Virus record (IMG/VR): IMGVR_UViG_3300035698_014127 | Span: 1 to 44,078 of that record | DNA length: 44,078 nucleotides | Source of the DNA: a virus | Direction: 5' to 3' (one strand) | Part shown: positions 709-39,144 of the stretch, in pieces | Layout of the letters: every line of letters begins with the position of its first letter | Position numbering within the stretch: position 1 is the first letter of the stretch | Made by a program: the position numbers and the translations under genes | Notes under the pieces: model-generated | What the model saw: only the letters and a program-made list of their open reading frames with translations | Told to the model about the DNA's origin: nothing | Database searches by the model: none

Positions 709-737
709 TTGACAGCAGATACCTGCCGTGGTATGGT
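709..737 (+). promoter_or_regulatory. Strong sigma-70-type promoter for the hairpin-rich RNA
   Basis: A perfect -35 hexamer TTGACA (709-714), a 17-bp spacer and a -10 TATGGT (732-737) give an expected transcription start near 744, about 100 nt before the first stable hairpin. It is among the best promoter matches I see in the window and points into the large structured region. Confidence 0.65.
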
Positions 738-1019
738 CATTATCAAGAGTGAGGGAATTCTGGACCTTGGCAACGTCCTTAAACTGCCTGATGCGAAGAA
801 TTACCGCTCTGCAATTTCGCAGCGCGGAACGCTTAGCAAGGGAATTGGCTGAAAATGATTATCCGCTGGATAGAAGCTTTCAGCCACAAAGAGAAGGGAA
901 GACTGCACTCTTCCCTTCTCTGGGAATTTTCCCAGAAAGAAAGAGAAGTCGCTGGAGAGTACATAAAATCTCCAGAGGCTTCAAAAATTTCATGGCCACA
1001 AGTTGGGCTTGTGGCCAAA

Positions 1020-1096
1020 CGCTGCGCTGTGGTCCGCTTGTGGGCTGCGGACTGCTGGTCAGAACCTGACCAGCAGGGCAGATTGACAGCGCAGCG
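1020..1096 (+). other. Three-way junction within the structured RNA
   Basis: An 11-bp closing stem (1020-1030 with 1086-1096) encloses two hairpins: 1032-1037 with 1047-1052 (6 bp) and 1052-1062 with 1066-1076 (11 bp, AAC loop). All pairs are Watson-Crick. This is a clearly branched RNA-type fold rather than a simple DNA palindrome. Confidence 0.6.
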
Positions 1097-1519
1097 CAAA
1101 AAAAGTGGAACAAGGCACACAGAGGCCTGGATCAATCCGAGCCTCTGTGCAGGATGTCCCTGGGCCGCGGTTGTGGTACGGACAACCGCGAGCAAGAAGG
1201 ACTTGAGAACTGCGAAATATTTCGCAAGTCTGCACAGCATTCCTGTGATCGTCACAGGGAAAGGAGAGGTGGGAATGTAGATTAGGACTGACAGACCTCT
1301 GCTCAGAGGGAACCTTGGTGAGATGACGCCAGAAACTCTGGCACCCAAGGTACAAGAAACAGGTCTGCTCTGACCTGGCGTCGGCAAGTCCAAGGAAAAA
1401 GCCTCTGCTTGGACAAAGAGAATAGCGCGGATTTTCCGCGCGTTCCCGTGCTACTGGGAACTAAAAATTATAGTGGCGGCTGGTAGTGCTTCCAGGCCAG
1501 AACCTTAGGGAAAGCACTA

Positions 1520-1572
1520 CGTCCTTTTTGGCTGCACTTTTTCAGGACGGTAAAAACTTTGAAAAAGCAGCC
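1520..1572 (+). other. H-type pseudoknot within the structured RNA
   Basis: Stem 1 pairs 1520-1525 with 1544-1549 (6 bp). Stem 2 pairs 1530-1543 with 1561-1572 (5 bp, a 2-nt bulge, then 7 bp). The 3' arm of stem 1 lies inside the loop of stem 2, so the two stems interleave as an H-type pseudoknot. Base 1520 could instead extend the preceding 1483-1491/1512-1520 stem. Confidence 0.5.
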
Positions 1573-1721
1573 ATTCCGAAGCACAGAAAGGGTGCTTCAC
1601 TTCCGCGAAAAAGGCTACTTTGGCGTAGTGCGGAAGCTGCCAAGACACAGCGTTTTGGCTCTAAAAGCCTTGTTTACCGCGCTGCCACTGCTGGTAGCGC
1701 AAACTTTAACTGGAGAGTGTT

Positions 1722-2105
1722 ATGGAGCTGTCTGGAAGCAAAAAACAAGTAGTGTGGGCGGAGAAAATACGCTCACACTGCCTGTCCGAAATAGAGGGTC
1801 TCTATCCTGAAGCGGACAGAGACCCTCTGGTCAAGAAGGGCCTCGCCTGGCTAGAAAGCCACTCTGATGCAGCATTCTGGATTGATTTTCGTGCTGATGG
1901 CGCGGATATCATTAACCGCGCAATTCTTTTCACAAATTCCGAAGGCAACACGTTGCCGTCTGGGGTAAAAATCTGTGATAGTGAGTTAAAGTCCGTCTGG
2001 ACAGCGGCGCGCATGCTGAACCGGTTGGACACCTGGACGCTGGGGCGGAAGCACAGGCGGTCAGATGCGCTTACTCTCTGCAAGGTAACGCTTGCAGAGA
2101 TCTAG
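1722..2105 (+). CDS. Conserved small phage protein of unknown function
   Basis: 127 residues, starting at ATG 1722 with GGAG at 1712-1715. The N-terminus (SGSKKQVVWAEKIR) and a following FWID segment recall a family of small uncharacterised proteins in phages and deltaproteobacteria that begin with a G-S/T-x-K-Q-x-x-W-A motif; I know of no assigned function. The body is helical and charged, with a basic, low-similarity C-terminus. The coding sequence carries strong RNA structures (1751-1760/1770-1779, a pseudoknot at 1782-1828, 1900-1905/1916-1921 and 2075-2084/2091-2100), which is unusual for an ordinary mRNA. It is probably co-transcribed with the structured RNA upstream. Confidence 0.6.
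   Translation: MELSGSKKQVVWAEKIRSHCLSEIEGLYPEADRDPLVKKGLAWLESHSDAAFWIDFRADGADIINRAILFTNSEGNTLPSGVKICDSELKSVWTAARMLNRLDTWTLGRKHRRSDALTLCKVTLAEI
1782..1828 (+). other. H-type pseudoknot inside the 1722-2105 coding region
   Basis: Stem 1 pairs 1782-1788 with 1813-1819 (7 bp). Stem 2 pairs 1793-1802 with 1819-1828 (10 bp). They interleave, sharing one G at 1819. The structure lies 60 nt after the start codon, where it could affect elongation or protect the RNA. Confidence 0.45.
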
Positions 2106-2246
2106 GAAAGAAGATGCGCTGGCAGACCAGGCACAGGCACAGGCTAAGGGAATTCTTCTGTACCTGGACAAGACCAGGACAGAGGAATTGTATTTATGGG
2201 AAAAAGGAAACAGGGACCAGGCATAACGGAATTCGTCATGCCTGGT
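2075..2246 (+). other. Three long hairpins at the 3' end of the structured region
   Basis: 2075-2084 pairs perfectly with 2091-2100 (10 bp, 6-nt loop) over the end of the small gene. 2151-2167 pairs with 2174-2189 (16 bp, one bulge, one G-U). 2216-2224 pairs with 2238-2246 (9 bp) around a smaller inner dyad. They continue the hairpin-dense pattern of 847-1704. I see no further gene in 2106-2366. Confidence 0.5.
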
Positions 2247-2331
2247 TCTCTTGGTTGCTGGAATGGGGCACAAATGACCTATTTTTCTCCAAAAATTTTT
2301 CTCGCTTCGCTCGTCTGTTGAAAAAGAACAG

Positions 2332-2366: not shown

Positions 2367-3161
2367 TTAGATTTCTGACTCATTGGAGCCTGCTGACTTT
2401 CTTGGAGGTACACACATTTTGAGGCCTTTGTTGAAAGTTGACCATTTGAGTCTGGTAATTTTAACATGGGTGTAGGAGTCCAGAACGTCCATTCTGGTTG
2501 GGTAAATTTTGCCTATTGAGAGCATGGCGACTTGAGAGTCATCGGCCCAGGCTGCGCCGTTCAGGCAGTCTAGAACGAATTTGGCAATATTGTCTGCGTC
2601 TGGTTTTTTTTCGTGCCAAATGGGTGCGGATTTTTTGAGAAATATTTCTCCTCTGCGTTTGCCGCTATGATTTTTTGGCCTTGGCATGCATGCTGTGATT
2701 ACGACTTCGAGCGGGCCAGACCATGGCATGGAGTCTGAAAGTTGTTGCCGCGCGAGGATAAGGAATTTGCCTTCTTCTGTTTCCTGTTCGTTGTACGTGA
2801 CAACGGCGTTGCCCCGTCTTGCGAATTTGGGTCTTTTTTTGCCTATTGGTTTTCCTGGAATTAGAATTTCCACGGTTGTTTGCTGGGTAAGCAGGTTTTT
2901 GGGTGCTGAATTTTCTTGGTTGTAGTTTTCCATGACAAGACCTTTATAATTTATCTGATTGTTGCTTGATGAGGTGCCAGCTTCTTGGTTCTTGCGCGGA
3001 GTCGAATCTTGTTGGTTTTGAGTATTGGTAGCCAATACTTTGGTTTGAGTGCCATAAGAACGTCTTTGCGAATCATTTGGGTTCTCCTCTTCGTATGTAG
3101 CCGCGAGGGCTTCTATCTGGTGCCTTATTCGGGAGTTCATGTGCTTACTCATGCACTGCAT
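2367..3161 (-). CDS. rusA: RusA-like Holliday junction resolvase with N-terminal extension
   Basis: RusA endonucleases cut Holliday junctions and other branched DNA as metal-dependent dimers. The C-terminal 170 residues match the family: an IPGKPIGKKRPKF start, then KKPDADNIAKFVLDCLNG and AWADDSQV, which contain the conserved Asp residues of the active site. The first ~76 residues are polar and low in complexity, unlike any RusA. An internal ATG at 2933 (MENYNQ), with AAAGG about 8 bases upstream, would give a normal-length 188-residue RusA and may be the true start; the upstream stretch is nevertheless open with no stops. Last gene of the leftward replication operon, probably resolving replication or recombination intermediates before packaging. 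Confidence 0.85.
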   Translation of the reverse strand: MQCMSKHMNSRIRHQIEALAATYEEENPNDSQRRSYGTQTKVLATNTQNQQDSTPRKNQEAGTSSSNNQINYKGLVMENYNQENSAPKNLLTQQTTVEILIPGKPIGKKRPKFARRGNAVVTYNEQETEEGKFLILARQQLSDSMPWSGPLEVVITACMPRPKNHSGKRRGEIFLKKSAPIWHEKKPDADNIAKFVLDCLNGAAWADDSQVAMLSIGKIYPTRMDVLDSYTHVKITRLKWSTFNKGLKMCVPPRKSAGSNESEI

Positions 3162-3181
3162 AGGGTTACGCGTTAAGCCGC

Positions 3182-3696
3182 TTAAGCAGGCTTGCAGGGC
3201 TTCGTGGTGCCTACTCTGAAAATTACGTCATTTATGACTTTTGGTACTTGGGATTTAGTTTGAGCGAGTTGCATAGTTCCGGTTGGATTTTTGTTGAAGG
3301 CTTCGGCGAAGTCTATTCTGGCAAAGTGTAGTTCGCGTTGAGGCCTTGCGGCCAGAATTTGCCACCCTCCTGTTGCTGCTACTGCGAAGGATACTGCCCT
3401 TGAGGGTTTGAATCCTATGCGGTTCCAGGCACCGGAACGGATATGGTCGAGTACTTCGAGCCACGCTGTTTGTGTGTGGTCTGGCGCTGCTTTCAAAATG
3501 TGTCCGATAATGTCAGCCACCAGAGGCATAAATTTGCATGTTTGTACGCAGGTGGTGATTGCGCTGTGCACTGTTGCGTCCTCGAAGTCGTTGAGGGCCG
3601 CGATGTACAGCAGTGTCGTATCTGCTGAAATCTTTCGGTTGAACATCTCCGCCATTGCCGTTATTGCGGTTGCTGTCTTTGCCTGTCCCTGTGTGG

Positions 3697-3700
<4 letters not shown>
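3182..3700 (-). CDS. Helicase-loader-like phage replication protein
   Basis: 172 residues, starting at ATG 3700 and overlapping the stop of the initiator gene by 4 bases (ATGA). An N-terminal helical part (TAITAMAEMFNRK, LLYIAALNDFED) is followed by a segment resembling K-F-x-P-x-x-A-D-I-I, then WNRIGFKPSRAV and a GGWQILA block. Phage helicase-loader or replisome proteins of lambda P / G39P type often have this layout of helical domain, P-x-x-x-D-I motif and C-terminal GW motif. Its place directly downstream of the initiator supports a loader role. The match is by pattern and context only. Confidence 0.5.
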
Positions 3701-4626
<926 letters not shown>

Positions 4627-4653
4627 TATACCTCCTTGCTTTGACGGCCAATC

Positions 4654-4696
4654 AAAATTGCGGTTCTCTGTCCTTAGGACAGTGAACCGCAATTTT
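4654..4696. terminator. 43-bp near-perfect hairpin between HTH gene and initiator
   Basis: Arms 4654-4666 and 4684-4696 are perfectly complementary (13 bp, beginning AAAATTGCGG). After one T-T mismatch, 4668-4674 pairs with 4676-4682. The outer A4/T4 ends fit a bidirectional terminator or attenuator that would lower initiator expression from the upstream HTH gene. It could also be an operator for the HTH protein. Confidence 0.5.
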
Positions 4697-4697
4697 G

Positions 4698-4895
4698 TTA
4701 TTTTGCGAACTTGTTGCTTTTCGGTACGACCCGGCAAGCCTTAAAAAAATCTTCCAAGTCTTGCCGCAGGTACCTGATAGTCTTGGCGGTTTTGTAGTAT
4801 GGAGGTCCAAGGTCCATTGACCTCCATGTTTGGATTGTGGACAGTTTCAACTTAAAAATGTCAGCAACTTCTTTTTCGGTAAAAAATTCTTCCAT
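4698..4895 (-). CDS. Excisionase/AlpA-like HTH protein
   Basis: 65 residues starting at ATG 4895 with AAAGGA upstream. It opens with FFTEKEVADIFKLKLSTIQTW, the usual MerR/AlpA-type HTH with the wing-like LGPPYYK and IRYLRQDLEDFF segments of excisionase-family proteins. No integrase is present, so a regulator of the replication operon is more likely than a true excisionase. A large hairpin follows it directly. Confidence 0.65.
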   Translation of the reverse strand: MEEFFTEKEVADIFKLKLSTIQTWRSMDLGPPYYKTAKTIRYLRQDLEDFFKACRVVPKSNKFAK

Positions 4896-5189: not shown

Positions 5190-6119
5190 ATGTCACTGTT
5201 TTTCCTGCTCGGGGCAGCTGACCCTGAGATGGCCTCAATTGAGGCCCTGCTCGCACAGTGCGGGCAGGGCTTCGCGCACGCCATGGTCAGCGGCGTGCGT
5301 GTCACGCCGCGGGCTACCTACCAGGCGGACGCGGCGACTGCCCCGTCAGGGGCACAAACCTTTTATGTAGAGTGCGCCCCCAGCACTCCGGTTGAGGGCG
5401 CAGTTGTCCTTGACCACCACCTGGCCGGGCATCCAGGCTTCGGCCGCCCTGCTGCTGACTTTTTCCCTGCCTCCAGCTTGGGGCAGGTTGTTGAGGTGCT
5501 GGCTCGCGCCGGTGCCTTGCCCGTGGCATGGCTGACGGCCACCCAGACCATGGGCACCCCCGGCCAGTCTGGGGGACTTAATCTGGCCTCTGAGGTTTTT
5601 TACAACGCAGCCACGGCAGTACAGTGGGTCGCGTCTGAGGCCGGGGAGGGCGAAGAGTATTTTTACGCCGTCCCTGGAACCTTATACGTAGTCGCGGCGG
5701 CTGACCACTGCCTCCGTGAAGCATACGCGGGTAACTGCCCCGGGGTGACGCCCGGGCAGGTTGCCGCATTCCGCGCCCAGTCCCGGGCATTATTTCTGGC
5801 GGTGCCGGCGGCGGAAGTCTACGCCATGCAGGCCACCGCGGTTTCCAAAGTCGCGGCGGCCCCAACCATAAACCTCGGTGACGTAGCTGTCGCCGACCTG
5901 CGGGGCGATATCGTTCCCGAATTGCCTGATGCGGCCTGTATGGCGCAGACGGCATGCCTTGCCGGGCCATTGGGGCCAAAGCAGAACAAATTTGGCCTCG
6001 TAGCCGGAGGCCCCGCCGAGGTCCAGGCATTTTTGGACCACGCCGGCACTGTCCTTGGCCTGACAGGACTTTACGGCGACCCTGCCCGAGGATACGCCGG
6101 AGGTTTTTTGAAGGAATAA
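5190..6119 (+). CDS. DHH-motif phosphoesterase-like protein, GC-rich
   Basis: 309 residues. I start at ATG 5190 (MSLFFLLGAADPEM) because AAGGAG lies just upstream. Around residue 75, VVLDHHLAGHPGFG followed by FFPASSLGQV resembles the Asp-His-His motif and next helix of DHH phosphoesterases, and the DPEMASIE opening may be another metal site. The C-terminal GYAGGFL is reminiscent of the Gly-rich end of DHHA1-type domains. If correct, it could hydrolyse a nucleotide or short oligonucleotide. Base composition is clearly GC-richer and more Ala-rich than the neighbours, suggesting recent transfer. First gene of the rightward operon, hence early. The activity is inference; the DHH match is short. 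Confidence 0.45.
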   Translation: MSLFFLLGAADPEMASIEALLAQCGQGFAHAMVSGVRVTPRATYQADAATAPSGAQTFYVECAPSTPVEGAVVLDHHLAGHPGFGRPAADFFPASSLGQVVEVLARAGALPVAWLTATQTMGTPGQSGGLNLASEVFYNAATAVQWVASEAGEGEEYFYAVPGTLYVVAAADHCLREAYAGNCPGVTPGQVAAFRAQSRALFLAVPAAEVYAMQATAVSKVAAAPTINLGDVAVADLRGDIVPELPDAACMAQTACLAGPLGPKQNKFGLVAGGPAEVQAFLDHAGTVLGLTGLYGDPARGYAGGFLKE

Positions 6120-6209: not shown

Positions 6210-6638
6210 ATGGGACTCACAAGAGTTCAAAAACACTATCGTGGCGATAGTGAAATAAAGGAAGCCCGCAAAAAGCAGGCCCTTGGTAAGTACTACCGAG
6301 AACCTGTCTGGAAGCGCGGACAGGTCCCTGTCTGCCCTGAAGAAGTTTCAGGGCAGGTTGACAGTGTTTTAGCAAAGGCGGACAGGGAAAGACCGCTGTC
6401 ACTGAAGGTCCACGAAGTGGCAGTTTTTAAGGGGCTTGGCAAAAGCAATAAGCGGAAAGTAACAATCCCGCTCCGAAGCACATCCCTTGGCGGCGAGGAT
6501 CTTTTTATCGCCGCTGACGCAAACATCAGCGACCTTGCCGCATGGGTGCAGGAAGTCTCCGCTGCACGGGCAAGCGGCACTGATGTCCCCCAAAGCCTCC
6601 CTGAGTTTTTTGAGGGGATGTACAGGCTTGAATATTAA
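6210..6638 (+). CDS. Hypothetical early protein in a hairpin-rich mRNA
   Basis: 142 residues starting at ATG 6210 after a GGGGTGGGGAA purine tract. The N-terminal half is basic (VQKHYRGDSEIKEARKKQ); the middle (KSNKRKVTIPLRSTSLGGED) may be a small beta domain. No family is recognised. The first 220 nt of the coding region contain perfect or near-perfect hairpins (6234-6241/6245-6252, 6302-6308/6319-6325, 6332-6341/6347-6356, 6396-6403/6416-6423), which shaped codon choice. It lies between two related intergenic hairpins. Confidence 0.55.
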   Translation: MGLTRVQKHYRGDSEIKEARKKQALGKYYREPVWKRGQVPVCPEEVSGQVDSVLAKADRERPLSLKVHEVAVFKGLGKSNKRKVTIPLRSTSLGGEDLFIAADANISDLAAWVQEVSAARASGTDVPQSLPEFFEGMYRLEY

Positions 6639-12053: not shown

Positions 12054-12249
12054 GCCAGTTCAGGCCCTGGGGCCTTTCTCCAGCGCTGTTCTTTGGGTTG
12101 TGTCGCTGACTGTGTCCACACATGCCGTTTATAACTTGTTCTCTTTTGACGAAAACACAATGTCTTGCAATGTTATTTGCATAATAACCGTGTTTCTCAA
12201 TAATTTTAATATGAACTGGCTGCTTGTGGACTTTATGAAGGACCGATGA
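12050..12249 (+). pseudogene. Frameshifted copy of the small membrane protein at 13074
   Basis: ATG 12050 opens a peptide that matches the 13074 protein (RPWGLSPALFFGL) but stops at 12107-12109. After a one-base shift the frame continues as a homologue of the rest (FDENTMSCNVICII against FSENGLPVNICLIS), ending near 12249. A single-base deletion near 12100 explains this. A 41-bp stretch is still identical to the intact copy. Confidence 0.7.
12061..12101 (+). repeat. 41-bp direct repeat, left copy, flanking the first methylase
   Basis: Identical to 13094-13134. It lies in the frameshifted gene copy; the intact copy carries the partner. The two bracket the adenine methylase gene. An inner AGGCCC-TG-GGGCCT dyad is present. 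Confidence 0.95.
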
Positions 12250-12262
12250 TAGGAGGGGACAA

Positions 12263-13081
12263 ATGCCAACAACACAAACCCCGCTTAGGTACCCAGGCGG
12301 CAAGAGTAGCTACAGAAAATTGATGCTTGAAATTTTCAAGCTGAATGGGCTTGGTAAAGTGCCTTTTTGTGAACCCTTCGCCGGTGGGGCTGGCCTTGGC
12401 CTTGGCCTGCTGTTTGATGATAAAATAGAAAGCCTGCACATCAATGACTACGATTATGATGTGTATGCGTTCTGGATGGCAGTAGTTTGCGACACAGAAG
12501 AGCTCATAACCCTTATCCAGGACACGGAAGTTAGCGTGGATGAATGGCATCGGCAACGCGCTATTTACACTGGCAAGTCGGACGCAACCAGATGCGGTAT
12601 CGGTTTTGCCACTTTTTACATGAACCGTTGCAATTTTTCAGGCATACTTGACGCACGGCCCATTGGAGGGATGGAGCGGCGCGGACTGTACAAGATAGGT
12701 TCCAGGTATAATAAGAAAACGGCAATTGCGAAGATAGAAGCTATCGCTGAACTGTCTGGCAAGATTCTCGTTGCGGGTTCGAATTTCACGAATTTTTTCA
12801 ATCTTTATGCAAAGCCAGACTCCTTCCTTTACCTGGACCCCCCGTATTACAAGAATGGGCCGTCAATCTACAAAGAGCATCTTAGTCCTGTTGAACATGT
12901 GGAGTTATCCTCATGCCTTGCAACCCATGAATCTCCGTGGGTGCTATCTTATGATGACCATGACTTTATCCGTGACCTGTACCATGGGTTTAATTTTTAT
13001 CGTGGCGGCTGCGTGAAGCCTGGCGAAGTGTTGATAAGCCCGCTAAAGCTGCCACCGTCTGGGGGTGTGACAAATGACTGA
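12263..13081 (+). CDS. dam: D12-class DNA adenine N6-methyltransferase (first copy)
   Basis: 272 residues. PLRYPGGKSSYRKLML at the N-terminus and FCEPFAGGAGLGLGLL around residue 35-50 form the S-adenosylmethionine pocket. FLYLDPPYYKNG around residue 190 is the catalytic DPPY motif. This is the Dam/MboI group that methylates adenine in short DNA sites, here probably protecting phage DNA from restriction or marking it. ATG 12263 has AGGAGGGG upstream. The gene sits between 41-bp direct repeats and two copies of a small membrane gene, as if inserted by duplication. The second phage methylase at 18141 is only distantly similar. Confidence 0.92.
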   Translation: MPTTQTPLRYPGGKSSYRKLMLEIFKLNGLGKVPFCEPFAGGAGLGLGLLFDDKIESLHINDYDYDVYAFWMAVVCDTEELITLIQDTEVSVDEWHRQRAIYTGKSDATRCGIGFATFYMNRCNFSGILDARPIGGMERRGLYKIGSRYNKKTAIAKIEAIAELSGKILVAGSNFTNFFNLYAKPDSFLYLDPPYYKNGPSIYKEHLSPVEHVELSSCLATHESPWVLSYDDHDFIRDLYHGFNFYRGGCVKPGEVLISPLKLPPSGGVTND

Positions 13082-13292
13082 AAAACAAGACAACAGGCCC
13101 TGGGGCCTTTCTCCAGCGCTGTTCTTTGGGTTGTTCATAATGCGCTATGCTCTATGCATCTACGCCATACTTGCCTTGCGGAGTTTTAGTGAGAATGGAC
13201 TGCCTGTTAATATCTGCCTGATATCTCTCATAATTATTAATGTTTTTGAGTGGGGGTTTCTTCTTGGGCAATACCTGGAGCGTGACAAATGA
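13074..13292 (+). CDS. Small two-helix membrane protein
   Basis: 72 residues, overlapping the methylase stop with GGGGG upstream. Two hydrophobic segments are seen (about 15-36, LFFGLFIMRYALCIYAI, and 45-64, NICLISLIIINVFEWGFLL), then a charged end. It is the intact paralogue of the frameshifted 12050 copy. Its N-terminus (MTE, then D-x-RPW) is also shared with the next gene, a hint of local duplication. Function unknown. Confidence 0.55.
   Translation: MTEKQDNRPWGLSPALFFGLFIMRYALCIYAILALRSFSENGLPVNICLISLIIINVFEWGFLLGQYLERDK
13094..13134 (+). repeat. 41-bp direct repeat, right copy, flanking the first methylase
   Basis: Identical to 12061-12101. Recombination between them would delete the methylase and fuse the two gene copies into one. 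Confidence 0.95.
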
Positions 13293-13600: not shown

Positions 13601-14296
13601 GTGAAAATAGCGACTCACTTAATAGGCAAGCATTTGCGCCACCAGGAAAGCGCAAAAGTGCTTGATTGCCAGTGCGCGATTTGTGGGGAAGAAGGATTAC
13701 CTGGATATCCGCGCCGCGATGTTCTGCCAAAAGTCTTTATGGACTCATCAATTGTTGGTTCTGGCGAAGCCATCTGTATTTATTGTGCCGCGTGTTTCGG
13801 GTATAAGCTCCAGCGAACGGATTGGCTTAGGAACCATTCCTTTTTCGCCACAGGAACAAAGTTGACCAGGCTGAAACGTGAAGACCTGTGGGCGGTGCTT
13901 TTGTCGCCACCAAAAGAGGACTTCGTTTTGTGTGTTACTTACAATCACAAGAAGCACACGGCTCTGCGTGCCGTCCTCAATCTTGCCAATCAGAGGCCAT
14001 ATTCTGTGCGGACAGAAACAGACACAATAGCCGTTTGGCCGGAAAAATTGACCGGCCTGTGCGAGGCAATGCGGGCAATGTACACTATTTGCAAGGCCAC
14101 AAAAGCCGAGCCAACATGGTTCTCAAAGAGCGATATTCTGCACGGGTGCATCAACTTCAAACGGATTGAAGATTTTGGCGCAAACGGGTTTTTCAGGCTG
14201 GATGCGATTGTGCAGCCGTATCGCAATACGGCGCTACTTGAGTTGCTCACTCGCGCCTTAAATAAGGGAGCGATGAAATGCGCGCATATCGAATAG
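13601..14296 (+). CDS. csf1: Csf1-like (Cas8-type) large subunit of a type IV CRISPR complex
   Basis: 231 residues from GTG 13601 with AAGGAG upstream. A zinc-binding pair near the N-terminus (CQCAICGEEG, then ICIYCAACFGY) is the signature of Csf1, the reduced large subunit of type IV complexes. The C-terminal half is helical and contains LCEAMRAMYTICKATKAEPTWF. In type IV complexes Csf1 sits at the crRNA 5' end with the Cas5-like Csf3. The csf3, cysH-like and csf2 genes follow with overlaps or tiny gaps, which supports the call strongly. Sequence similarity to known Csf1 is by motif only. Confidence 0.75.
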   Translation: MKIATHLIGKHLRHQESAKVLDCQCAICGEEGLPGYPRRDVLPKVFMDSSIVGSGEAICIYCAACFGYKLQRTDWLRNHSFFATGTKLTRLKREDLWAVLLSPPKEDFVLCVTYNHKKHTALRAVLNLANQRPYSVRTETDTIAVWPEKLTGLCEAMRAMYTICKATKAEPTWFSKSDILHGCINFKRIEDFGANGFFRLDAIVQPYRNTALLELLTRALNKGAMKCAHIE

Positions 14297-14937
14297 ATGT
14301 TAAATTCTATAGCCCTATGTCAGGGTATAACAGGACCACGTTGGACGGTCTGCTGGCTTGGGCCATAGAACACGAGTTGCAGCCTTGGTCATGTTTGTTT
14401 ATCGAGAACGGTGGTTGGTCAAAACGGAAACCAATTGGCATCGAAAAGACCAAGGAACTCTTACTCTACTACGAGGGCGTCCCAGTGGCCACTCGGATTA
14501 TCCCACATGGGGACACGCTGCAGCTTACTGACACCTACAAGAAAAGATTCCATTCTATCCACCACGAGCTAATTGACTTCAAGGGAAAGAAGCGGCGCAT
14601 AGACACGACTGTTGGTTTTTACAAATCGTTCAATATGCCGGTGCCAGGGGAGGTCTTCGCGCATGGGTATTGGGAGTTTCTTGGAGATGGTCCCAAGGTC
14701 TTGCACTACCTGGAACACAACGTATTTGCAATTGGGAAGCATGCTGCAAGCGGGTACGGGATTGTGCGTAATTTTTCGTTGTCAGAATCCACTTCAAGCC
14801 TCGTGGACATAATGAAAAAAAGACCAGTGCCAGAGGATATCGCAAGCCGCCTTGGAATCACGGGCAACAAAAAGGTGTGCGGGTTTCGTGCACCATATTG
14901 GGTGGCTAAAAACCAGACGATTTGCGTGGAGGCTTGA
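14278..14937 (+). CDS. csf3: Csf3-like (Cas5-type) RAMP subunit
   Basis: 219 residues, overlapping csf1 by 19 bases, with AGGGAG upstream. The N-terminal RAMP strand (RAYRIDVKFYSPMSG, then LDGLLAWA) is followed by GKKRRIDTTVGFYKSFNMP and the Gly-rich C-terminal IGKHAASGYGIVRNF. This is the pattern I associate with Csf3, the Cas5 equivalent of type IV systems, which caps the crRNA 5' handle. It is encoded between csf1 and the cysH-like gene. Confidence 0.8.
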   Translation: MRAYRIDVKFYSPMSGYNRTTLDGLLAWAIEHELQPWSCLFIENGGWSKRKPIGIEKTKELLLYYEGVPVATRIIPHGDTLQLTDTYKKRFHSIHHELIDFKGKKRRIDTTVGFYKSFNMPVPGEVFAHGYWEFLGDGPKVLHYLEHNVFAIGKHAASGYGIVRNFSLSESTSSLVDIMKKRPVPEDIASRLGITGNKKVCGFRAPYWVAKNQTICVEA

Positions 14938-14939
14938 CC

Positions 14940-15719
14940 ATGATCGAACCTGGACACATTTGGGACGATTACCACGAAGAGGATTTCTTGTGGTCACGGC
15001 TTCCGGTGCATAAGCGAAGAGTGGAAGCAGCCAAACGCATTGTTAAGAGGTGGTTATCGAAATGTGAACGGCCATATATCGCCTGCTCTGGTGGCAAGGA
15101 TTCAGTCGCCATGCTCCACCTGATACAATCAGTTGCAGATAGCCCAGTGGACGTAATGTGGCACGATTCAGGCGTTGAGTGGCCTGGTGTGCCTGAAATG
15201 TTTGACCGATTGAAAGATGCTGGCCTCGTGAAGAAGCTGGTTATTTCACGTCCAGAAATAGACGCTATCGAGCTAAAGCGCGAGCAGCTTGCAGGCAAAA
15301 TGTCTGCGAGTAAAAAAGATGCTATTCTGCTGTTTGAGCCAATTAACAAGACAGTGGCTGAAAACAAATTTGACGGCTTCGCCATGGGCCTTCGTGCAGA
15401 GGAAAGCAGGGGCCGGGCCGCCAATCGCAGGTTCCACGGGAAACTGTATACAAAAAAGGACGGGATGCATGTTTGCACTCCAGTCGCAGACTGGACATGG
15501 CAGGACGTCTACGCCTACACTGCTGCGAACACCTTGCCCCTGCACCCAATCTACTCTGCTCCGCTGGTGCATTACCCTCACAGAGGCATAATCAGACTAT
15601 CTTGGTGGGCGTCAACCGACCAAGACAGCTTAGGCTCTATCGCTTGGATACGCCAAGTATATCCAGAAATATTTAACCGCCTGGAAGAAGCCTTTCCCGG
15701 CATATCATGCAGGACATGA
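14940..15719 (+). CDS. cysH: CysH-like PP-loop ATPase associated with type IV-B CRISPR
   Basis: 259 residues. I start at ATG 14940 because GGAGG lies seven bases upstream and it directly follows the csf3 stop. ACSGGKDSVAMLHLI around residue 45 is the PP-loop (SGGKDS) that binds ATP, and MGLRAEESRGRA and CTPVADWTWQDVYAY are the usual PAPS-reductase-family blocks. The C-terminal Cys-containing E-C-G-x-H motif of true PAPS reductases is not seen, so it is more likely an ATP-using enzyme than a sulfate-assimilation reductase. A CysH-like gene is the marker of type IV-B CRISPR loci. Its substrate there is not established. Confidence 0.85.
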   Translation: MIEPGHIWDDYHEEDFLWSRLPVHKRRVEAAKRIVKRWLSKCERPYIACSGGKDSVAMLHLIQSVADSPVDVMWHDSGVEWPGVPEMFDRLKDAGLVKKLVISRPEIDAIELKREQLAGKMSASKKDAILLFEPINKTVAENKFDGFAMGLRAEESRGRAANRRFHGKLYTKKDGMHVCTPVADWTWQDVYAYTAANTLPLHPIYSAPLVHYPHRGIIRLSWWASTDQDSLGSIAWIRQVYPEIFNRLEEAFPGISCRT

Positions 15720-15730
15720 AAGGAAGAACC

Positions 15731-16945
15731 ATGCTTAAAATCTATCACAAGTTCACAACTGTTGGCCCGCTGCATACCGGAAGTGATATCAACGCAGGAA
15801 CAACAAGAACGCTGCGCCGTCAGTCTTGCGTGCTTGCGACTCCGCTAAAGTACGAGAGCAGAGTATCTGCAGATGATCGCACGGACGCTGTCGCGCATCT
15901 GCTTTTGGGTGTATGGCGGTCCATTGACCACAAGAACATGGGTGCGTCACGGCGCATGCGCATCTGGGAAGAGTTTGCGAATAAAGTACTTGCTGCGGCA
16001 CGGATGCCGACCACCAGTAGATTCTTGCAGGCGCTTTGTTCAAGCTTTGGGATTGAGGCAATTAAGGGCGAGGTGTGCCTTGAGATAACAACGCTCCTTT
16101 CTGACTTTGACGTGTTGAGTACAATCAGAAATGAGCATTTGCTCGTAATTCTAAAAATGCGTGCGCTCCGTGACGCCAGCAAGGAAAAGAACGAACCTGA
16201 AGACGCAATTTTAGGTGTGCCTAAGAAAATAACCCCGATTACGTCCAAAACCATCAAAGTTACAGAGGACATGATACCGTGCATTTCAGGCAATGGAATC
16301 AGGGGCAAAATGCGCCGTCTTGCCATGGCCGACTTTTGCACGCGAGCCGGGATCAAAGGCCTTTCAAAAAGGGCGTATCACATGCTTTTCACTGGCGGGA
16401 TACTGGACCAATCAACTCGGTGGGAAGATTTTGACCGGTTAGAAGAAATAGTTACCGCGTGCCCTATGATTGGCCTCTTTGGCTCTGCAATCGGGAACAT
16501 GACCATTGAGGGCTGGCTGAAGGTCGGGTGGGCGTACCCTGTTTGCCGCGAGCGAGGAACAGGGGAGGCGTCTTATTGGCAATACCTTGACACGGTATTC
16601 CAGACTCGTCTTGACTCGTCTAAAACAGAACGAGGAATTGAGCTAAAACGCGATTCAGAAAAAGACGCGCCGCAGCAAATGAAATATGAATTTGAAGTTT
16701 TCGCTGATGGCACGCCTTTTGAGCATTGGTTCGGCTTTGGCGGCAAGACTTCGCTTGCTGCATCCACCTTTGCGCGTGCCGCTAAGTGCTTCCTTGACGC
16801 GCCATATATAGGGGGCAAATCATCCGTTGGCGTTGGGCGGTGTGATTTTAGCGACCTTGGAAATCAGCTTGGAGACCCCGCAGAATACGATACGGCCGTG
16901 GTCGAAAACGCAGAGATGTCAAGACGAGTGCTTGGCGAGATTTGA
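15731..16945 (+). CDS. csf2: Csf2-like (Cas7-type) backbone RAMP protein
   Basis: 404 residues. I start at ATG 15731 because AAAGGA lies upstream. VGPLHTGSDINAGTTRTLRR at the N-terminus and ISGNGIRGKMRRLA near residue 195 are classic Cas7-family features (the Gly-rich turn before the RNA-binding helix). IGGKSSVGVGRCDF near the C-terminus is another Gly-rich RAMP loop. Csf2 multimerises along the crRNA spacer in type IV complexes. It ends the rightward operon, 15 bp from the convergent holin gene. No Cas11-type, DinG or Cas1/Cas2 gene accompanies it. Confidence 0.82.
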   Translation: MLKIYHKFTTVGPLHTGSDINAGTTRTLRRQSCVLATPLKYESRVSADDRTDAVAHLLLGVWRSIDHKNMGASRRMRIWEEFANKVLAAARMPTTSRFLQALCSSFGIEAIKGEVCLEITTLLSDFDVLSTIRNEHLLVILKMRALRDASKEKNEPEDAILGVPKKITPITSKTIKVTEDMIPCISGNGIRGKMRRLAMADFCTRAGIKGLSKRAYHMLFTGGILDQSTRWEDFDRLEEIVTACPMIGLFGSAIGNMTIEGWLKVGWAYPVCRERGTGEASYWQYLDTVFQTRLDSSKTERGIELKRDSEKDAPQQMKYEFEVFADGTPFEHWFGFGGKTSLAASTFARAAKCFLDAPYIGGKSSVGVGRCDFSDLGNQLGDPAEYDTAVVENAEMSRRVLGEI

Positions 16946-17442: not shown

Positions 17443-18081
17443 TCACCGCCTATTTGGAATAAAAAGGCCACAGCCAAAACGCCTGCGCCCACCAAGGCCA
17501 ATTTCTTGTAGAAAAATGGATTCTTCTGGCGTTAATTCCTCAACCCCAAGGGCGAATCCTACAATATTTTTGTCCCTAATTCTAACTGTCCGTCTAAGAA
17601 CCGAGGATTTACTGCCTCCTGACCTGTCGCTGTTGGCTGCCTGGATATCAGATTGAGCTTTCAATTTTGCATTGCCCTTGATTCCCAGACTCACCAGACG
17701 TTCTCTTGCGTTTTGTAGAAAATCTTTTGGCTCCATGAACCCTTTAATGATGACAAGACGGCTATAGACTCTTGGGGATGGGATGAGGTTGTAAATGGTG
17801 GGAGAGCCGATTCGGAGTTCTGCGCCACCAAGACGAAGCCTTGTTCCAGACAGGGGAAACAACTGGCTGATGCGGTCGCTGTCAATCCTGAAAGTCAGGC
17901 GGCTTCCTGTGGTTAGTTCCATGTTGCGATTTTGTCGCGGATTTCCAGCGATGGCATGGATTCCCACTCCCTCGTCTCCATGAATTACAGGGAGAATCTT
18001 TGAAATGGCTGAAAACAAGCAAAATCCGTGATCAGCAGGGATTAATTCTCCTTTGAGATGAAAAGCGACATCTACCTTCAT
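17443..18081 (-). CDS. cas6: Cas6 (Cmx6-type) CRISPR RNA endoribonuclease-like protein
   Basis: 212 residues. I start at ATG 18081 because GGGGG lies just upstream. LIPADHGFCLFSAISKILP and GVGIHAIAG near the N-terminus are the signature of the Cas6/Cmx6 family (type I-MYXAN), with a candidate catalytic His. GLGGRRRFGCGLFIP at the C-terminus is the Gly-rich RNA-binding loop of RAMP proteins. Cas6 enzymes cleave the hairpin of CRISPR repeats. Here it lies inside the late lysis cassette, on the other strand from the Csf operon. A perfect 10-bp hairpin sits directly upstream of its start. No array is seen, so its substrate is open. Confidence 0.8.
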   Translation of the reverse strand: MKVDVAFHLKGELIPADHGFCLFSAISKILPVIHGDEGVGIHAIAGNPRQNRNMELTTGSRLTFRIDSDRISQLFPLSGTRLRLGGAELRIGSPTIYNLIPSPRVYSRLVIIKGFMEPKDFLQNARERLVSLGIKGNAKLKAQSDIQAANSDRSGGSKSSVLRRTVRIRDKNIVGFALGVEELTPEESIFLQEIGLGGRRRFGCGLFIPNRR

Positions 18082-18097
18082 GTCCACCCCCTTTTCC

Positions 18098-18122
18098 AGC
18101 TGTCAAGAAATCCTTGACAGCT
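18098..18122 (-). other. Perfect 10-bp hairpin upstream of cas6
   Basis: AGCTGTCAAG (18098-18107) and CTTGACAGCT (18113-18122) are perfect complements around a 5-nt loop, 17 bases before the cas6 start. There is no T-run for a classical terminator. It could be an autoregulatory Cas6 site, a solitary repeat-like element, an operator or a weak terminator. Confidence 0.55.
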
Positions 18123-18141
18123 CATCGTATCCACGTCACGC
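18122..18141 (-). repeat. 20-bp direct repeat, copy at the methylase 3' end
   Basis: 19 of 20 bases match 18818-18837, which is the end of the endolysin coding region. On the minus strand the copy reads as the same Val-Thr-Trp-Ile-Arg-stop, but it lies behind the second methylase. Confidence 0.9.
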
Positions 18142-18821
18142 TATCCCAGCCTGAATAGCCTCTCTGTCGCTTGCGAGTGTTCGCCTATCGGCATACTTGA
18201 CTTTACAGGTTGTTCAAACACGCAGTCAAAGTCACCAGGAGCAGCGTACTCACTCACAAAAATCTTGTGCCCTTGCCCTGCTTTATCCCTGCACCATTGC
18301 CAAAAAATATCACTGTCAAAGGAAACCCCATATTTTTTGGTATTGGCATAGGGAGGGTCACAATAAATAAAGCTGCTTTCAGGCATCCCAAGAGCGCGAT
18401 AATCGACGACTGAAAATTTTATTCCTCGCAAATTTTTGTACTGTTTTGCCGCGTTGCGGCTACCTTCTCTTGCAAAATTTCGCCCGCCGCCACGGGCATA
18501 CCCGCCAAACCATCTGCCTCTAAAACTGCACGGGAAGCCAGCAAAACCAACCAACTCAGGTGGGAAAGCGTCTTTGTCCGCCTTGATTTCCTGGTATTTT
18601 TCGTGACTTAACTCCGTGGGCGGCGTCCATCCATCCCTGACAGCTTCAAGAAAGGCAATAAGATACGCATTAATATCATTTCCATATCGTTGCCCACCCA
18701 CCTTATCAATCATGTTTGCACCGCCGACAAATGGCTCAACCCATGGCCTGTGCCCCCGCTCAGGCAACATCACCTGTAATAACTGTCTGGTAATCCTGTT
18801 TTTGCTACCCATATATTTCAT
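18141..18821 (-). CDS. dam: D12-class DNA adenine N6-methyltransferase (second copy)
   Basis: 226 residues. I start at ATG 18821 (MKYMGSKNRITRQLL), which overlaps the endolysin stop as ATGA. YMGSKNRI and WVEPFVGGANMIDKV form the cofactor pocket; FIYCDPPYANTKKYG near residue 160 is the catalytic motif. It differs in layout from the 12263 enzyme (shorter, with a Gly/Arg-rich insert near residues 95-115), so the two probably methylate different sites. It is flanked by 20-bp direct repeats copied from the endolysin end and interrupts the lysis cassette. Confidence 0.9.
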   Translation of the reverse strand: MKYMGSKNRITRQLLQVMLPERGHRPWVEPFVGGANMIDKVGGQRYGNDINAYLIAFLEAVRDGWTPPTELSHEKYQEIKADKDAFPPELVGFAGFPCSFRGRWFGGYARGGGRNFAREGSRNAAKQYKNLRGIKFSVVDYRALGMPESSFIYCDPPYANTKKYGVSFDSDIFWQWCRDKAGQGHKIFVSEYAAPGDFDCVFEQPVKSSMPIGEHSQATERLFRLG

Positions 18822-18837
18822 CGTATCCACGTTACGC
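18818..18837 (-). repeat. 20-bp direct repeat, original copy at the endolysin 3' end
   Basis: Encodes the last residues (Val-Thr-Trp-Ile-Arg-stop) of the endolysin. Its near-identical copy at 18122-18141 lies on the far side of the methylase. Confidence 0.9.
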
Positions 18838-28014: not shown

Positions 28015-30660
28015 TTATAGCCCCAACAAAAAAGAACCTTGGTCCTCGTTCACGCGCAGCTTTATTGCGCTCAAGATTTCCCACATAATCGCTTGCAAAT
28101 GCGGCTGAAGCGCACCTGCATCAAAATCGATGGTTATCCCGCCGCCGCCCCTTCGCAACATGGCAGCCTTGGCTCTCATTTCCTCAACTTGCGCCTTAAC
28201 CACTTTTTCTTGGAGTTTGAATGCTTTTTCTCTAAGATTCATCTCTTTTTCCATATATATTCGTATATCAAGTGACTCACTTGACCCCTCGCGGACCCCT
28301 CCGAGCGCACTTGCGAAATCGCCCATTAACTTGCCCGTTGATATTATAGAAGTATCTATAGAATCAAATACAGCCTCGACCTTTTGAGCGTTCGCCTGGA
28401 CCTCGGCGATGTCAATCCTTGCTTTCCATTCCACAGCAGATTGCACTACGGCCGCCTGCGCCTTCAGGTTAGCGATTTTGACTTGAGCCTCAATCTCCAT
28501 CACCCGAACGGCGGGTATTTTGTCGTCAATCTCATCCACGGCCTTTGCAGTCGCAGCCGCGTCCACCTCGGTCTTTATGTACACACTTCGTTCAGTCGGT
28601 AGGCCCTCGTCTATAATCAATTCAGTATATCTAATACTGGACACGTCAGGCTCTGCAATGATTTTGACAGCTTTCGTCTTGACCTGCTCAAGCGCAGTCT
28701 CAAAAACCAATCGCTGTTCGGTTGCGCTTTCCTTGGTGGACGTCTCCTGCTCGAACAGAAAGTCCTGATATTTTGCTTTGGCTTTGTCAAAATTCCAATC
28801 TGTTACGTCCTTGTCAAAGTCTTGCAACCCTGTGAAGTTAAACACTTGGTCAGCCAAGCGAAACAAGGACTGTGCTGCTCCTTCTACCCCTGGAACAAAC
28901 TTATCTAGCAGCGTGCCAGCGAGAACGCCTAAAACACCAGCCATCCCAACCAGTCCAGCCGAAGATAGCAGAGCACCGGTCGCAGCAGACAGTCCAGCAG
29001 AGGCCGCAGTTGTGACGCCCATAGCACTCGCCACTCTGGTCAAAGTAGCTCCAGCGTTCACCACGGAGGACAGGCCAAAGAGGCCAAAAAAAGCAGCCAT
29101 TGCATCACTGTGAGCAAGTAGCTTTGAAATGCCCAGTGCCAAGCCAGAAATTGAACCAACGAGTTGCAACGTGTCCTCGCTCAACTCGTCCACGTTATCC
29201 AGCCCCGCGCCAATGGCCGTAAACATCGGGCCAAGGCCATCCACCACACCAGCAGACACACGGGTCAATGCCTCAAAAACATCCACAAGTTTTTGCAGCG
29301 CACGCGCCAGGCTTTCAGGGTCACTCGCGTCAAGCTCACCAAAGACAGCAGAAAAAGCACCCCGCAACGAGTCGCCCAAATCCCCAAAAGAATCAATGAA
29401 CGTAGAAAAGTCAATTTTTCCAAGAGCCTCCGGCAATGTTTTGGCTATTTCTTCGATTGTTGACGCAAGGTCATCACCAAGGCGGCTAATAGCGTCAAAA
29501 AGGTCATCAAATGCACCAGCGGATACCGCGTCACCTATTGATGCAAACACGCCAGAAAGCGCCCTGGCAACGTCCGCATATTCGTCTGTTATCTGGCTGC
29601 CGATCTGGATAAGTGTTGCCTGCAAGTTGTTGACAAGGCCCTGATTTATCAAGGCCATATTGTCAGCCATCTTTCCATACGCGGCCTCTGTTGCACCTGC
29701 TGCGTTCTGCATGGCAAACAATGCTTCCGCAAATTTCCCCGTGCTGTCCTTGCCCAAAACGAGCGCAGCATTCAACCCTTCAACAGAGCCGAATAATTTT
29801 GACATAGTGGCCACGTTGCCGCCGGTGGCTGCCTGCACATCTGCCAAAACGCCCTCAAAGCCCTTGGATTGGAGTGCCGCCGCACCAAACTCAAGGCCAA
29901 GAGCTTTAGCTGTTTTTTCAGCTTGCGCAGAGGGTTTAATCAGGTTTGACAACGCCGCTTTTATAGCTGTTATGGCCTGTGTCGTCGGCAATCCTGCCGC
30001 TGTGAGTGCCGCGATACTTGCGCTCAAGGTCTCAATCGGGACATCCGCAGCGGCAGCTATCCCAGTCACCTGTGCCAAAGAGGCGGCAAGCTCTGGGATA
30101 GTCGTCTGCCCCTTTTCAACCGTCTTGAAAAGCACATCAGAATATCGCGCTGCCTGGTCCGTGCTGGCACCGTAAGCATTCAGCGTTGAAGCCAATAAAA
30201 CCGTAGCACTATTCAGGTCAGACTTGCCAGCCACGGCAAGCTGCTCGGCGGTGGTCATCAAGCCGAGTGAATCGGCATAATCCGTGCCAGCAGAAATGGC
30301 TGAATAAATCGCGCCTGTGATTGAATCCAGCCCTTGAGTTGACTCGCGGGAGTAGTCCAACACTTCACCCTTAAAGCGCTCCAAATCGTCTGTGGACGCA
30401 CTTGTAAGCGTGCTTATTTCAGCGAACGAGCCGCTAAAATCTCCAGCTGCTTTCACTGCCAGGGCAAGGCCGCCGATACTCAAGGTTACAAGTGCGGCCT
30501 CGGCCTTAAGCACGCCAGTTGCAAAACCTGCAAGCGGGTCAACGACTCCTTGCAACTTACCGGCAAACTGACCAAACCGAGCCTCAATTGATTGAATTGT
30601 CTTGGTGATTTTGTCATCACCTTGAAAGACAATTTCGACTACTCTGGAAACATCAGCCAC
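28015..30660 (-). CDS. Tail tape measure protein
   Basis: 881 residues from GTG 30660, overlapping the G-T chaperone frame. The first ~400 residues follow the TP901-type tape measure pattern (GVLDYSRESTQGLDSITGAIY-like blocks here GEVLDYSRESTQGLDSITG, AATAADVPIETLSASIAAL-like AAADVPIETLSASIAALTA). Long helical stretches, Ala/Gly-rich membrane-like segments (about 490-590) and a helical C-terminus follow. It sets tail length and may form the DNA channel. Length predicts a tail of roughly 130 nm by the usual 1.5 Å per residue rule. Confidence 0.9.
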   Translation of the reverse strand: MADVSRVVEIVFQGDDKITKTIQSIEARFGQFAGKLQGVVDPLAGFATGVLKAEAALVTLSIGGLALAVKAAGDFSGSFAEISTLTSASTDDLERFKGEVLDYSRESTQGLDSITGAIYSAISAGTDYADSLGLMTTAEQLAVAGKSDLNSATVLLASTLNAYGASTDQAARYSDVLFKTVEKGQTTIPELAASLAQVTGIAAAADVPIETLSASIAALTAAGLPTTQAITAIKAALSNLIKPSAQAEKTAKALGLEFGAAALQSKGFEGVLADVQAATGGNVATMSKLFGSVEGLNAALVLGKDSTGKFAEALFAMQNAAGATEAAYGKMADNMALINQGLVNNLQATLIQIGSQITDEYADVARALSGVFASIGDAVSAGAFDDLFDAISRLGDDLASTIEEIAKTLPEALGKIDFSTFIDSFGDLGDSLRGAFSAVFGELDASDPESLARALQKLVDVFEALTRVSAGVVDGLGPMFTAIGAGLDNVDELSEDTLQLVGSISGLALGISKLLAHSDAMAAFFGLFGLSSVVNAGATLTRVASAMGVTTAASAGLSAATGALLSSAGLVGMAGVLGVLAGTLLDKFVPGVEGAAQSLFRLADQVFNFTGLQDFDKDVTDWNFDKAKAKYQDFLFEQETSTKESATEQRLVFETALEQVKTKAVKIIAEPDVSSIRYTELIIDEGLPTERSVYIKTEVDAAATAKAVDEIDDKIPAVRVMEIEAQVKIANLKAQAAVVQSAVEWKARIDIAEVQANAQKVEAVFDSIDTSIISTGKLMGDFASALGGVREGSSESLDIRIYMEKEMNLREKAFKLQEKVVKAQVEEMRAKAAMLRRGGGGITIDFDAGALQPHLQAIMWEILSAIKLRVNEDQGSFLLGL

Positions 30661-31281
30661 GTTGTTTGCTCCGTCTGTTTTGGTCTTCGTACCATTTGCC
30701 CCAGAGCGCCCGCTCTGTTGCAGTTAAAAACCCCTGTGGGAAAATGTCCGGTCTCGTCTCGTACAAAAATCGGTGTCCCCCACCTGCCCCGCCTCCAGCG
30801 CACAGTGCAAGCGAAGCCCGCACGTCAGGGTCTCGCCAGAGACGCTCTATTCCCCCGGCATGGCTCCCTCGCCGGTAAGCACCAGTATTGCGTTGGTTAA
30901 ATTGTAAAACGTCACGGGACGCACCGTCGCCAGCTTGACAGACTGCGCGTCCGTGATAGTCGGTGACACACTGCCAAATTTAAGCATGCGCAAACGCCGT
31001 ATATAATCTGGCTGTTTGGCTCCGTCGTCCAGCCCTAACGACTGTTTTACGCCCGCTATAACGCCTTCACCGGTACTGCTCGCGAAGGCAGACAATAGGC
31101 CCTCCACATTGCGGGCCTGCTCCGCCGCGTCATTTACGATTGCCAGTTCCTTCCCCGTCAGATTTCGCACGGTCCAGGCCTGGTCTTCGCCTTCATCGAA
31201 AAACGCGGCCAATTCTGGAACCGGCACGTCCTTTGTGCGGGGCTGGAATTTCACTTTTTCCAGTTTATTAATGTTAAGCAT
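30653..31281 (-). CDS. Tail assembly chaperone G-T fusion by -1 frameshift
   Basis: The G frame stops at 30847-30849. One base back, an uninterrupted 66-codon frame runs from 30853 to a stop at 30653-30655, overlapping the tape measure start. The extension contains GIERLWRDPDVRAS, HRFLYETRPDIF and ERALWGKWYEDQNRR, clearly protein-like and Trp-rich. A run of five G (30853-30857) directly before the G stop is the likely slip site. This matches the lambda G/G-T arrangement, where a small share of ribosomes make the fused protein that recruits the tape measure to the tail tube. Confidence 0.8.
30847..31281 (-). CDS. Tail assembly chaperone (G-like)
   Basis: 144 residues. I start at ATG 31281 (MLNINKLEKVKF) because GGGAGG lies seven bases upstream and it overlaps the glycosyltransferase stop. 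TKDVPVPELAAFFDEGEDQA and WTVRNLTGKELAIVND match the tail chaperone family. Length is close to lambda gpG (140). Together with the frameshifted form it chaperones the tape measure. Confidence 0.8.
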   Translation of the reverse strand: MLNINKLEKVKFQPRTKDVPVPELAAFFDEGEDQAWTVRNLTGKELAIVNDAAEQARNVEGLLSAFASSTGEGVIAGVKQSLGLDDGAKQPDYIRRLRMLKFGSVSPTITDAQSVKLATVRPVTFYNLTNAILVLTGEGAMPGE

Positions 31282-37281: not shown

Positions 37282-37295
37282 TTTCAATCCTTCCT

Positions 37296-38157: not shown

Positions 38158-39144
38158 TTACCGGATAGCCGCAGCACCGATGCTGCGGGCAAATGTTTCG
38201 GAATCCATGCCGTCAAAAGAACGGCTACCATTACCCTTGTCGCCAGCGCCGGTGTCTTTGGCATCTGGCTGGCGCTGGTCAAACATCAATCCAAGCACCT
38301 CTGCATGCGTCTTCCCCTCACCATGGGAGCGAGCAACAATGCCGATAAGCTCGGCGTCTGTTCCAGCCCGATTCACCAGGTCGCCGTACTGCTCTGGAAC
38401 CATGCCGAATTTTGGTTTGGCATCCTCTGTGGCCAAGGCCCGTGTCTCTGTAGCGATCTCTGCCGCAGTCGGCAGCTTGATTGCGCTTATGGCTTCCGTC
38501 ACCACCTCTGTCACAATCTCCCGTACTTCTTTTGCGTCCATCTTGTCGTCCTCCGTGTTGGTTGGTGCTGTTATTGTTCGTATTTCTGCTTGCTCGAACG
38601 CTCTGCCAACACCCACTGACGTATCAGCAGGAATAGGTGTAAGTGATATTTCCGTTGGCTGCCACTTGCAGACGATCGCCGGTCCTGCATGACCAAGAAA
38701 GGTTTCGCCAGTCTGGACCTCGGTAACGCTTTTCACCAGATACCCGACAGACACGCCACGGAGACTGCCAGATTGAACTTTTTTCCATGCACGCTCGCCG
38801 TCTTCATCTTCATCAAAGTAGATGCGGGCCTTACCACGCTTGCCCTCGATTCGTATTGAGTCAGGGCGACCAAGAATAATATCGGGGTCGTGATTAAGCA
38901 ATACCGAGCCAAGTTCTGACAGACGCGACAAATCGGCATCGCCAGGCTCATGACTCAAGACTTCATTGACACGTCCTTCAAGTATTTGGCCGTAATACCA
39001 ACGTATGACCGGTTCCTCGGAAGAAAAAGAGACTTCGATTGACCGACTTGAGACGTCTACAAGGGCACGGTCCATGGCGTAGCTGCGGACTAAAAGGCGG
39101 TCCTGTAGTCCGTTATCCTTCGGTTGCTTTGTTCGTTTTCTCAT
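38158..39144 (-). CDS. Prohead protease fused to scaffold-like domain
   Basis: 328 residues. I start at ATG 39144 (GAGG upstream), overlapping the portal 3' end. Residues ~20-175 match the S78/HK97-type prohead protease: LGSVLLNHDPDIILGRPD (catalytic His), VQSGSLRGVSVGYLV (catalytic Ser) and CKWQPTEISLTPIPAD. The C-terminal part (KEVREIVTEVVTEAISAIKL) is helical and acidic like a scaffold. It directs shell assembly, then cleaves itself and partners before DNA packaging. Confidence 0.88.
   Translation of the reverse strand: MRKRTKQPKDNGLQDRLLVRSYAMDRALVDVSSRSIEVSFSSEEPVIRWYYGQILEGRVNEVLSHEPGDADLSRLSELGSVLLNHDPDIILGRPDSIRIEGKRGKARIYFDEDEDGERAWKKVQSGSLRGVSVGYLVKSVTEVQTGETFLGHAGPAIVCKWQPTEISLTPIPADTSVGVGRAFEQAEIRTITAPTNTEDDKMDAKEVREIVTEVVTEAISAIKLPTAAEIATETRALATEDAKPKFGMVPEQYGDLVNRAGTDAELIGIVARSHGEGKTHAEVLGLMFDQRQPDAKDTGAGDKGNGSRSFDGMDSETFARSIGAAAIR

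Follow-up and report, generated by a model that had tools for sequence, protein, structure and literature searches.

What does a virus encode in a stretch of 960 bases (positions 744-1705 of IMGVR_UViG_3300035698_014127) that, as one strand, is predicted to form some two dozen mutually unrelated hairpins, far more than chance would give? The record is a 44,078-base linear sequence of a tailed phage, analysed here over its full length (the window), and its closest terminase relatives, which share 50-53% identity, come from MAGs of Deltaproteobacteria and from IMG/VR contigs. The initial annotation described the region as a ~960-nt phage RNA that could be a new class or a divergent member, with GOLLD and ROOL as the nearest precedent. 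The function of such large phage RNAs, including GOLLD, ROOL and the ICP1 RNA, is unknown and is an open problem. Our analysis indicates that the region is real and strongly structured, lies outside the known families and is probably an RNA.

Perfect stems were counted as Watson-Crick helices with loops of 3-25 and compared with 300 dinucleotide shuffles. The region contains 14 stems of at least 7 bp, against a shuffle mean of 1.40 (maximum 7); for at least 8, 9 and 10 bp the counts are 8, 7 and 3, versus 0.37, 0.08 and 0.04 in the shuffles. Other tiles of the window hold a mean of 1.8 stems of at least 7 bp. The at least ten perfect stems of 7-13 bp noticed earlier in about 860 nt are thus confirmed, and the accompanying guess of less than one chance stem per kb holds for the longer stems and is slightly low for those of 7 bp. 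The folding energy is distinct too: positions 744-1740 have an MFE of -436.7 kcal/mol, clearly below the -332.8 +/- 10.5 of the shuffles (z -9.9; none of 20 shuffles folded as well), and 150-nt windows of the late region have a mean z of -0.3. Only 5% of the pairs in the predicted fold are G-U.

The stem arms are unrelated in sequence, as had been proposed, sharing only short, two-copy direct repeats, and a CRISPR-array test for identical repeats at regular spacing found no repeat family among the hairpins. The sole 8-mer present in three copies among them, AAAGAGAA, was considered as a recurrent 3' handle and rejected, since 80 of 500 shuffles do as well. A terminator array was also rejected: the terminator scan found no U-run behind any plus-strand stem in 744-1705. 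The same holds for a CsrA/RsmZ-type sponge, the listed loops having no recurrent GGA pattern. At 1261-1280, within the hairpin region, AAGGAGAGG precedes ATG-TAG, a start-stop minimal ORF, by 5 nt.

Pair probabilities divide the region into a 5' domain and a multibranched domain (Table 1). The latter, about 560 nt long, is closed by long-range helices of 8-10 bp: its outer helix has P 0.86 over 10 bp, and a second helix nested within it (1195-1202/1521-1528) has P 0.97. When the linker bases were shuffled, only 7 of 1000 trials gave linker-linker complementarity as good as that of the native sequence. The pairing between the linkers was no weaker when their order was permuted, so that this measure is uninformative on long-range architecture and the global fold is supported only moderately. 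The three-way junction seen in the initial annotation was recovered as a prediction, with a strong closing stem. The pseudoknot was not: after folding, unpaired segments within 744-1705 share at most 5 bp of complementarity, leaving no pair of at least 6 bp and no pseudoknot or kissing-loop candidate. Two alternative pairings, 1514-1521/1624-1631 and 1145-1152/1230-1237, compete with predicted hairpins.

Table 1. Positions of the hairpin region, its transcription signals and other genes of the record
Feature	Positions	Strand	Details
Sigma-70-type promoter	709-737	+	TTGACA-17-TATGGT, extended -10 TG; 10/12 matches in consensus scan
5' domain	744-1104	+	Hairpins and three-way junction, from pair probabilities; z -10.2 on +, -9.4 on -
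5' domain hairpins	787-842, 846-886, 890-921 (13 bp perfect), 922-933, 945-982, 993-1017	+	Pair probabilities
Three-way junction	1020-1096	+	Predicted; P 0.99 for the closing stem, 0.59 and 0.95 for the arms
Multibranched domain	1105-1677	+	Closed by 1105-1116/1667-1677; z -8.1 on +
Hairpins of multibranched domain	1118-1149, 1164-1193, 1205-1233, 1240-1260, 1312-1351, 1360-1377, 1388-1414, 1425-1441, 1483-1520, 1530-1572, 1578-1598, 1600-1636, 1639-1659	+	Pair probabilities
Last hairpin before downstream gene	1679-1700	+	Pair probabilities; no U-run after
Ribosome-site hairpin	1710-1735 (1710-1718/1727-1735)	+	Pairs GGAG 1712-1715, P 0.91
Small protein gene, 127 aa	1722-2105	+	phrog_16123, E 1.4e-5; hairpin-rich mRNA
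Hairpins in small protein gene	1745-1785, 1788-1832, 2075-2100	+	
Structured region after gene	2106-2290	+	z -5.1; hairpins 2151-2189 (P 0.99), 2214-2248 (P 0.89)
RusA gene	2367-3161	-	Convergent with hairpin-bearing + unit
Two orphan early genes	5190-6119, 6210-6638	+	mRNAs with excess structure versus synonymous-codon shuffles
Type IV-B module	13601-16945	+	Csf1, Csf3, CysH-like, Cas11-Csf2 fusion
Cas6	17443-18087	-	I-B/MYXAN type
Tape measure	28015-30660		
Major capsid	36064-37287		
Prohead protease	38158-39153		
Portal	39113-40822		
Terminase	41431-43446 and 43400-43897		

The promoter claimed just upstream was found again by a consensus scan, with an extended -10 TG in addition, and is the only promoter-like site on the plus strand at positions 500-2400. 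It predicts a transcription start at ~744, where the structured region begins. Folding energy leaves the choice of strand undecided, since the reverse strand is almost as extreme (z for the 5' and multibranched domains of -10.2 and -8.1 on plus, -9.4 and -8.4 on minus), and the composition of unpaired bases was therefore used instead. On the plus strand these are 44% A, 22% G, 15% C and 19% U, compared with A/G/C/U values on the true strands of 45/17/14/23 for ROOL and 48/13/15/24 for the ICP1 RNA, the strand of the ICP1 RNA being assigned from its flanking genes. Unpaired G on the reverse strand is 9% here and 6-7% for the two known RNAs. Coding strands are also purine-rich where unpaired, so this composition indicates a transcribed strand rather than a noncoding RNA. 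The long-range helices and the A- and purine-rich unpaired bases both favour the plus strand, from which, judging by sequence, the region is very probably read as RNA.

Excess structure extends beyond 1705, into ORF 1722-2105 and on to ~2280. The ~960-nt structured region noticed earlier is real, but its extent needs correcting, since the structure is not a discrete unit of that size. By its sequence relatives, ORF 1722-2105 is a genuine gene: the product aligns with chromosomal homologues over GSxK(Q/M)xxWAEKIR...WWID.R, and in a related class its family occurs in 22 of 147 genomes. Its RNA is more folded than all 300 synonymous-codon shuffles (MFE z -5.1), and hairpins continue after the stop codon. 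No intrinsic terminator follows the last hairpin before the gene, and there is no terminator-like plus-strand site anywhere between the hairpins and the gene, which makes the hairpin region at least partly a leader. The 3' end of the transcript probably falls between positions 2106-2290, the structured stretch behind the gene, and the convergent RusA gene.

The same kind of excess reappears in the two orphan early genes of the plus strand. Against synonymous-codon shuffles the first (5190-6119) gave z -3.9 and -3.2 and the second (6210-6638) z -4.5, with no shuffle as low, and the excess declines along their operon. It is absent from the minus-strand operon 2367-4737, which sits between both structured plus-strand units, and from the late genes. 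The excess thus tracks plus-strand transcription units, a pattern not expected from a regional DNA process, and an RNA-level cause is favoured over a DNA-level one, although the units are few.

Our best explanation, in which we place about even confidence, is that positions 744 to ~2280 form a structured early plus-strand transcript, part noncoding and part mRNA, and not an isolated ornate RNA. It draws on features computed from the sequence, namely the fold, the promoter match, the downstream gene and the spread of structure. More specifically, it follows from the excess of stems and energy over shuffles, the promoter just before the first hairpin, the long-range helices and linker complementarity, the ROOL- and ICP1-like unpaired composition of the plus strand, the true downstream gene, the excess in the plus-strand early genes 1722, 5190 and 6210, and energies in the range of MS2. 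Set against it are the failure of BLAST, covariance-model and pattern searches to find a homologue, the nearly equal energies of the reverse strand, the purine-rich unpaired bases of ordinary coding strands and the immateriality of linker order; the 5% of G-U pairs also suits recent perfect inverted repeats.

In the mechanism that we infer, which takes in strand, transcription, transcript continuity, shielding and translational control, an early plus-strand transcript would start near 744 with the hairpin region as its first ~970 nt. These would fold almost wholly into strong independent hairpins together with a multibranched domain closed over a long range, and the transcript would continue through the 127-aa gene to ~2280. 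The hairpins would most likely protect it from nucleases and from host attack by RNA-directed base pairing. The hairpin at 1710-1735 would hide the ribosome site and restrain translation of the small protein until opened. The RNA would then be a structured leader and, potentially, a free-standing noncoding RNA as well.

The nearest match in energy is the genome of the ssRNA phage MS2, where structure coexists with coding. Per 962-nt tile, MS2 has z -7 to -18 and a paired fraction of ~0.65, both in line with the region, but only 1-3 perfect 7-bp stems versus the 14 found here in a tailed dsDNA phage. Energetically the region thus resembles the genome of an RNA phage, whereas in perfection of its stems it exceeds ROOL, the ICP1 RNA and MS2. 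Long perfect hairpins that grade into a structured protein-coding mRNA are a build unlike that of GOLLD, ROOL or the ICP1 RNA, and may show a separate solution, in which a DNA phage has early transcripts folded like the genome of an RNA phage.

Homologues of the hairpin region were sought widely. DNA BLAST against phages, plasmids and E. coli found none, nor did searches of 389 genomes of a related class, of terminase-, DnaD- and RusA-related loci (more than 180 related viral and MAG loci overall) and of loci carrying the family of the downstream gene. A single-sequence covariance model of 1018-1163 had no match in 88 sources and 395 genomes, and an exact 17-mer scan of IMG/VR had none to the region. 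Two hairpin-dense look-alikes (L149 and L176) were rejected as AT-rich chance stems, and one intergenic region (L012) was rejected as holding small genes rather than hairpins.

The first alternative is a free-standing large noncoding RNA, a particle or scaffold like GOLLD, ROOL or the ICP1 RNA that is made in bulk during lysis, with gene 1722 merely adjacent. We consider it rather unlikely as a complete account, while release of a separate noncoding RNA by cleavage or termination near 1700 is quite possible. Like GOLLD and ROOL the region is large, ORF-less, phage-borne and equipped with its own promoter, and like ROOL and the ICP1 RNA it is A-rich at unpaired positions. Known families do not accommodate it, however. 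No Rfam family matched at gathering, and at E<=5 the best match reached 19.6 bits against a cut-off of 40; both matches in the region were on the minus strand and far below cut-off. The ROOL model (RF03087) gave no match at E<=10, with a true ROOL found at E 1.1e-29 as positive control, and the GOLLD model (RF02032), which lacked an above-cut-off positive control, gave none at the same threshold across the record. Membership in Rfam, GOLLD or ROOL was rejected at both gathering and permissive thresholds, and the suggestion of a divergent GOLLD or ROOL member was not upheld; with no known family matched, the region may represent a novel type of phage RNA.

Its build differs too. ROOL folds with z ~-1 and lacks perfect stems of 7 bp or longer, versus z ~-10 and 14 such stems here. 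GOLLD, which forms a homo-oligomeric cage and is expressed in lysis, often lies near tRNA genes, although this is not strictly required; the hairpin region has no tRNA neighbour, and the 44-kb record contains no tRNA genes. The ICP1 noncoding RNA is an ~800-nt RNA in a 1-kb space and the most abundant phage transcript (PMC7567579). It and the region share their size, an ORF-less gap of ~1 kb, the absence of a nearby tRNA and a near-identical unpaired composition, but the ICP1 RNA has z ~-2.7 and 2 perfect stems, and its transcription was measured whereas that of our region is predicted from sequence. A free-standing particle RNA also sits poorly with the missing terminator after 1700, the extension of structure into gene 1722 and the lack of kissing-loop or pseudoknot candidates. 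Another hairpin-rich phage RNA, the CBASS-sensed cabRNA, is ~400 nt long and comes from the terS-terL genes (PMC10686824); the region described here lies outside the terminase genes and has no known CBASS link.

According to the second alternative, which we judge improbable, the inverted repeats arose at the DNA level, for example by template switching that perfects imperfect palindromes, and have no RNA function. Perfect stems can arise and persist through template switching (PMC8794818), perfect inverted repeats within coding genes are known elsewhere (PMC6649704), and the stems described here are near strand-symmetric, with few G-U pairs. Against it stand an excess that follows plus-strand transcription units and skips the intervening minus-strand operon, long-range pairing between linkers, and a promoter exactly before the first hairpin.

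The type IV-B module and Cas6 of the record offer a third alternative. A Cas6 accompanying type IV-B looks unusual, as does the fusion of Cas11 with Csf2, and the record has no CRISPR array. Cas6 cuts hairpin RNA, which makes a connection to the hairpins tempting; it usually requires a shared 3' handle. The hairpins would in that case be a repeat-less guide precursor, cut by the phage Cas6 and loading the phage type IV-B (Csf) complex. If true, this would provide array-less type IV-B systems with their missing RNA. Type IV-B systems have been described without a CRISPR locus or processing enzyme, leaving the source of their RNA open (PMC8175902, PMC7937560); the recombinant complex binds unrelated RNAs of 55-60 nt (PMC7937560), and Bathyarchaeia viruses are known to carry such a system (PMC10848311). 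Against this, the hairpins have neither a common sequence nor a 3' handle, 12 kb separate them from the cas genes, and cas6 is on the strand opposite the csf genes. The arrangement is known here from a single genome, and four other type IV-B-like plasmid loci carry no hairpin array. We regard a guide precursor as very improbable, and a link between the CRISPR module and the hairpins as possible but unsupported. Racr RNA anti-CRISPRs are likewise phage-encoded hairpin RNAs, and Cas6 is a possible binder here; they are copies of one CRISPR repeat (PMC10651486), unlike the mutually different hairpins of this phage.

Finally, that the hairpins are due to chance or conceal a protein-coding gene is hardly credible: ORFs of 98-186 aa do cross the region and that at 855-1280 (plus) has a gene-like codon score, but those at 728-1069 (plus) and 833-1393 (minus) score near or below zero, none of the three has a Pfam family (the only match was sub-threshold, E 0.047), and 14 stems stand against 1.4 expected. 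The initial view that 744-1705 holds no credible gene was accordingly sustained.

Several further features of the record were noted. A 41-bp perfect direct repeat (12061-12101 and 13094-13134) brackets a DNA methyltransferase gene (12263-13081), which looks as if it had been inserted recently. A second, near-perfect direct repeat of 20 bp (18122-18141 and 18818-18837) brackets a short D12-type methyltransferase gene (18141-18830). A family 2 glycosyltransferase gene is found within the structural gene block (31274-32443, minus strand). Positions 4653-4697, where the DnaD-like gene region starts, form an inverted repeat of 22 bp (95%) with a gap of 1 nt, perhaps a terminator or operator.
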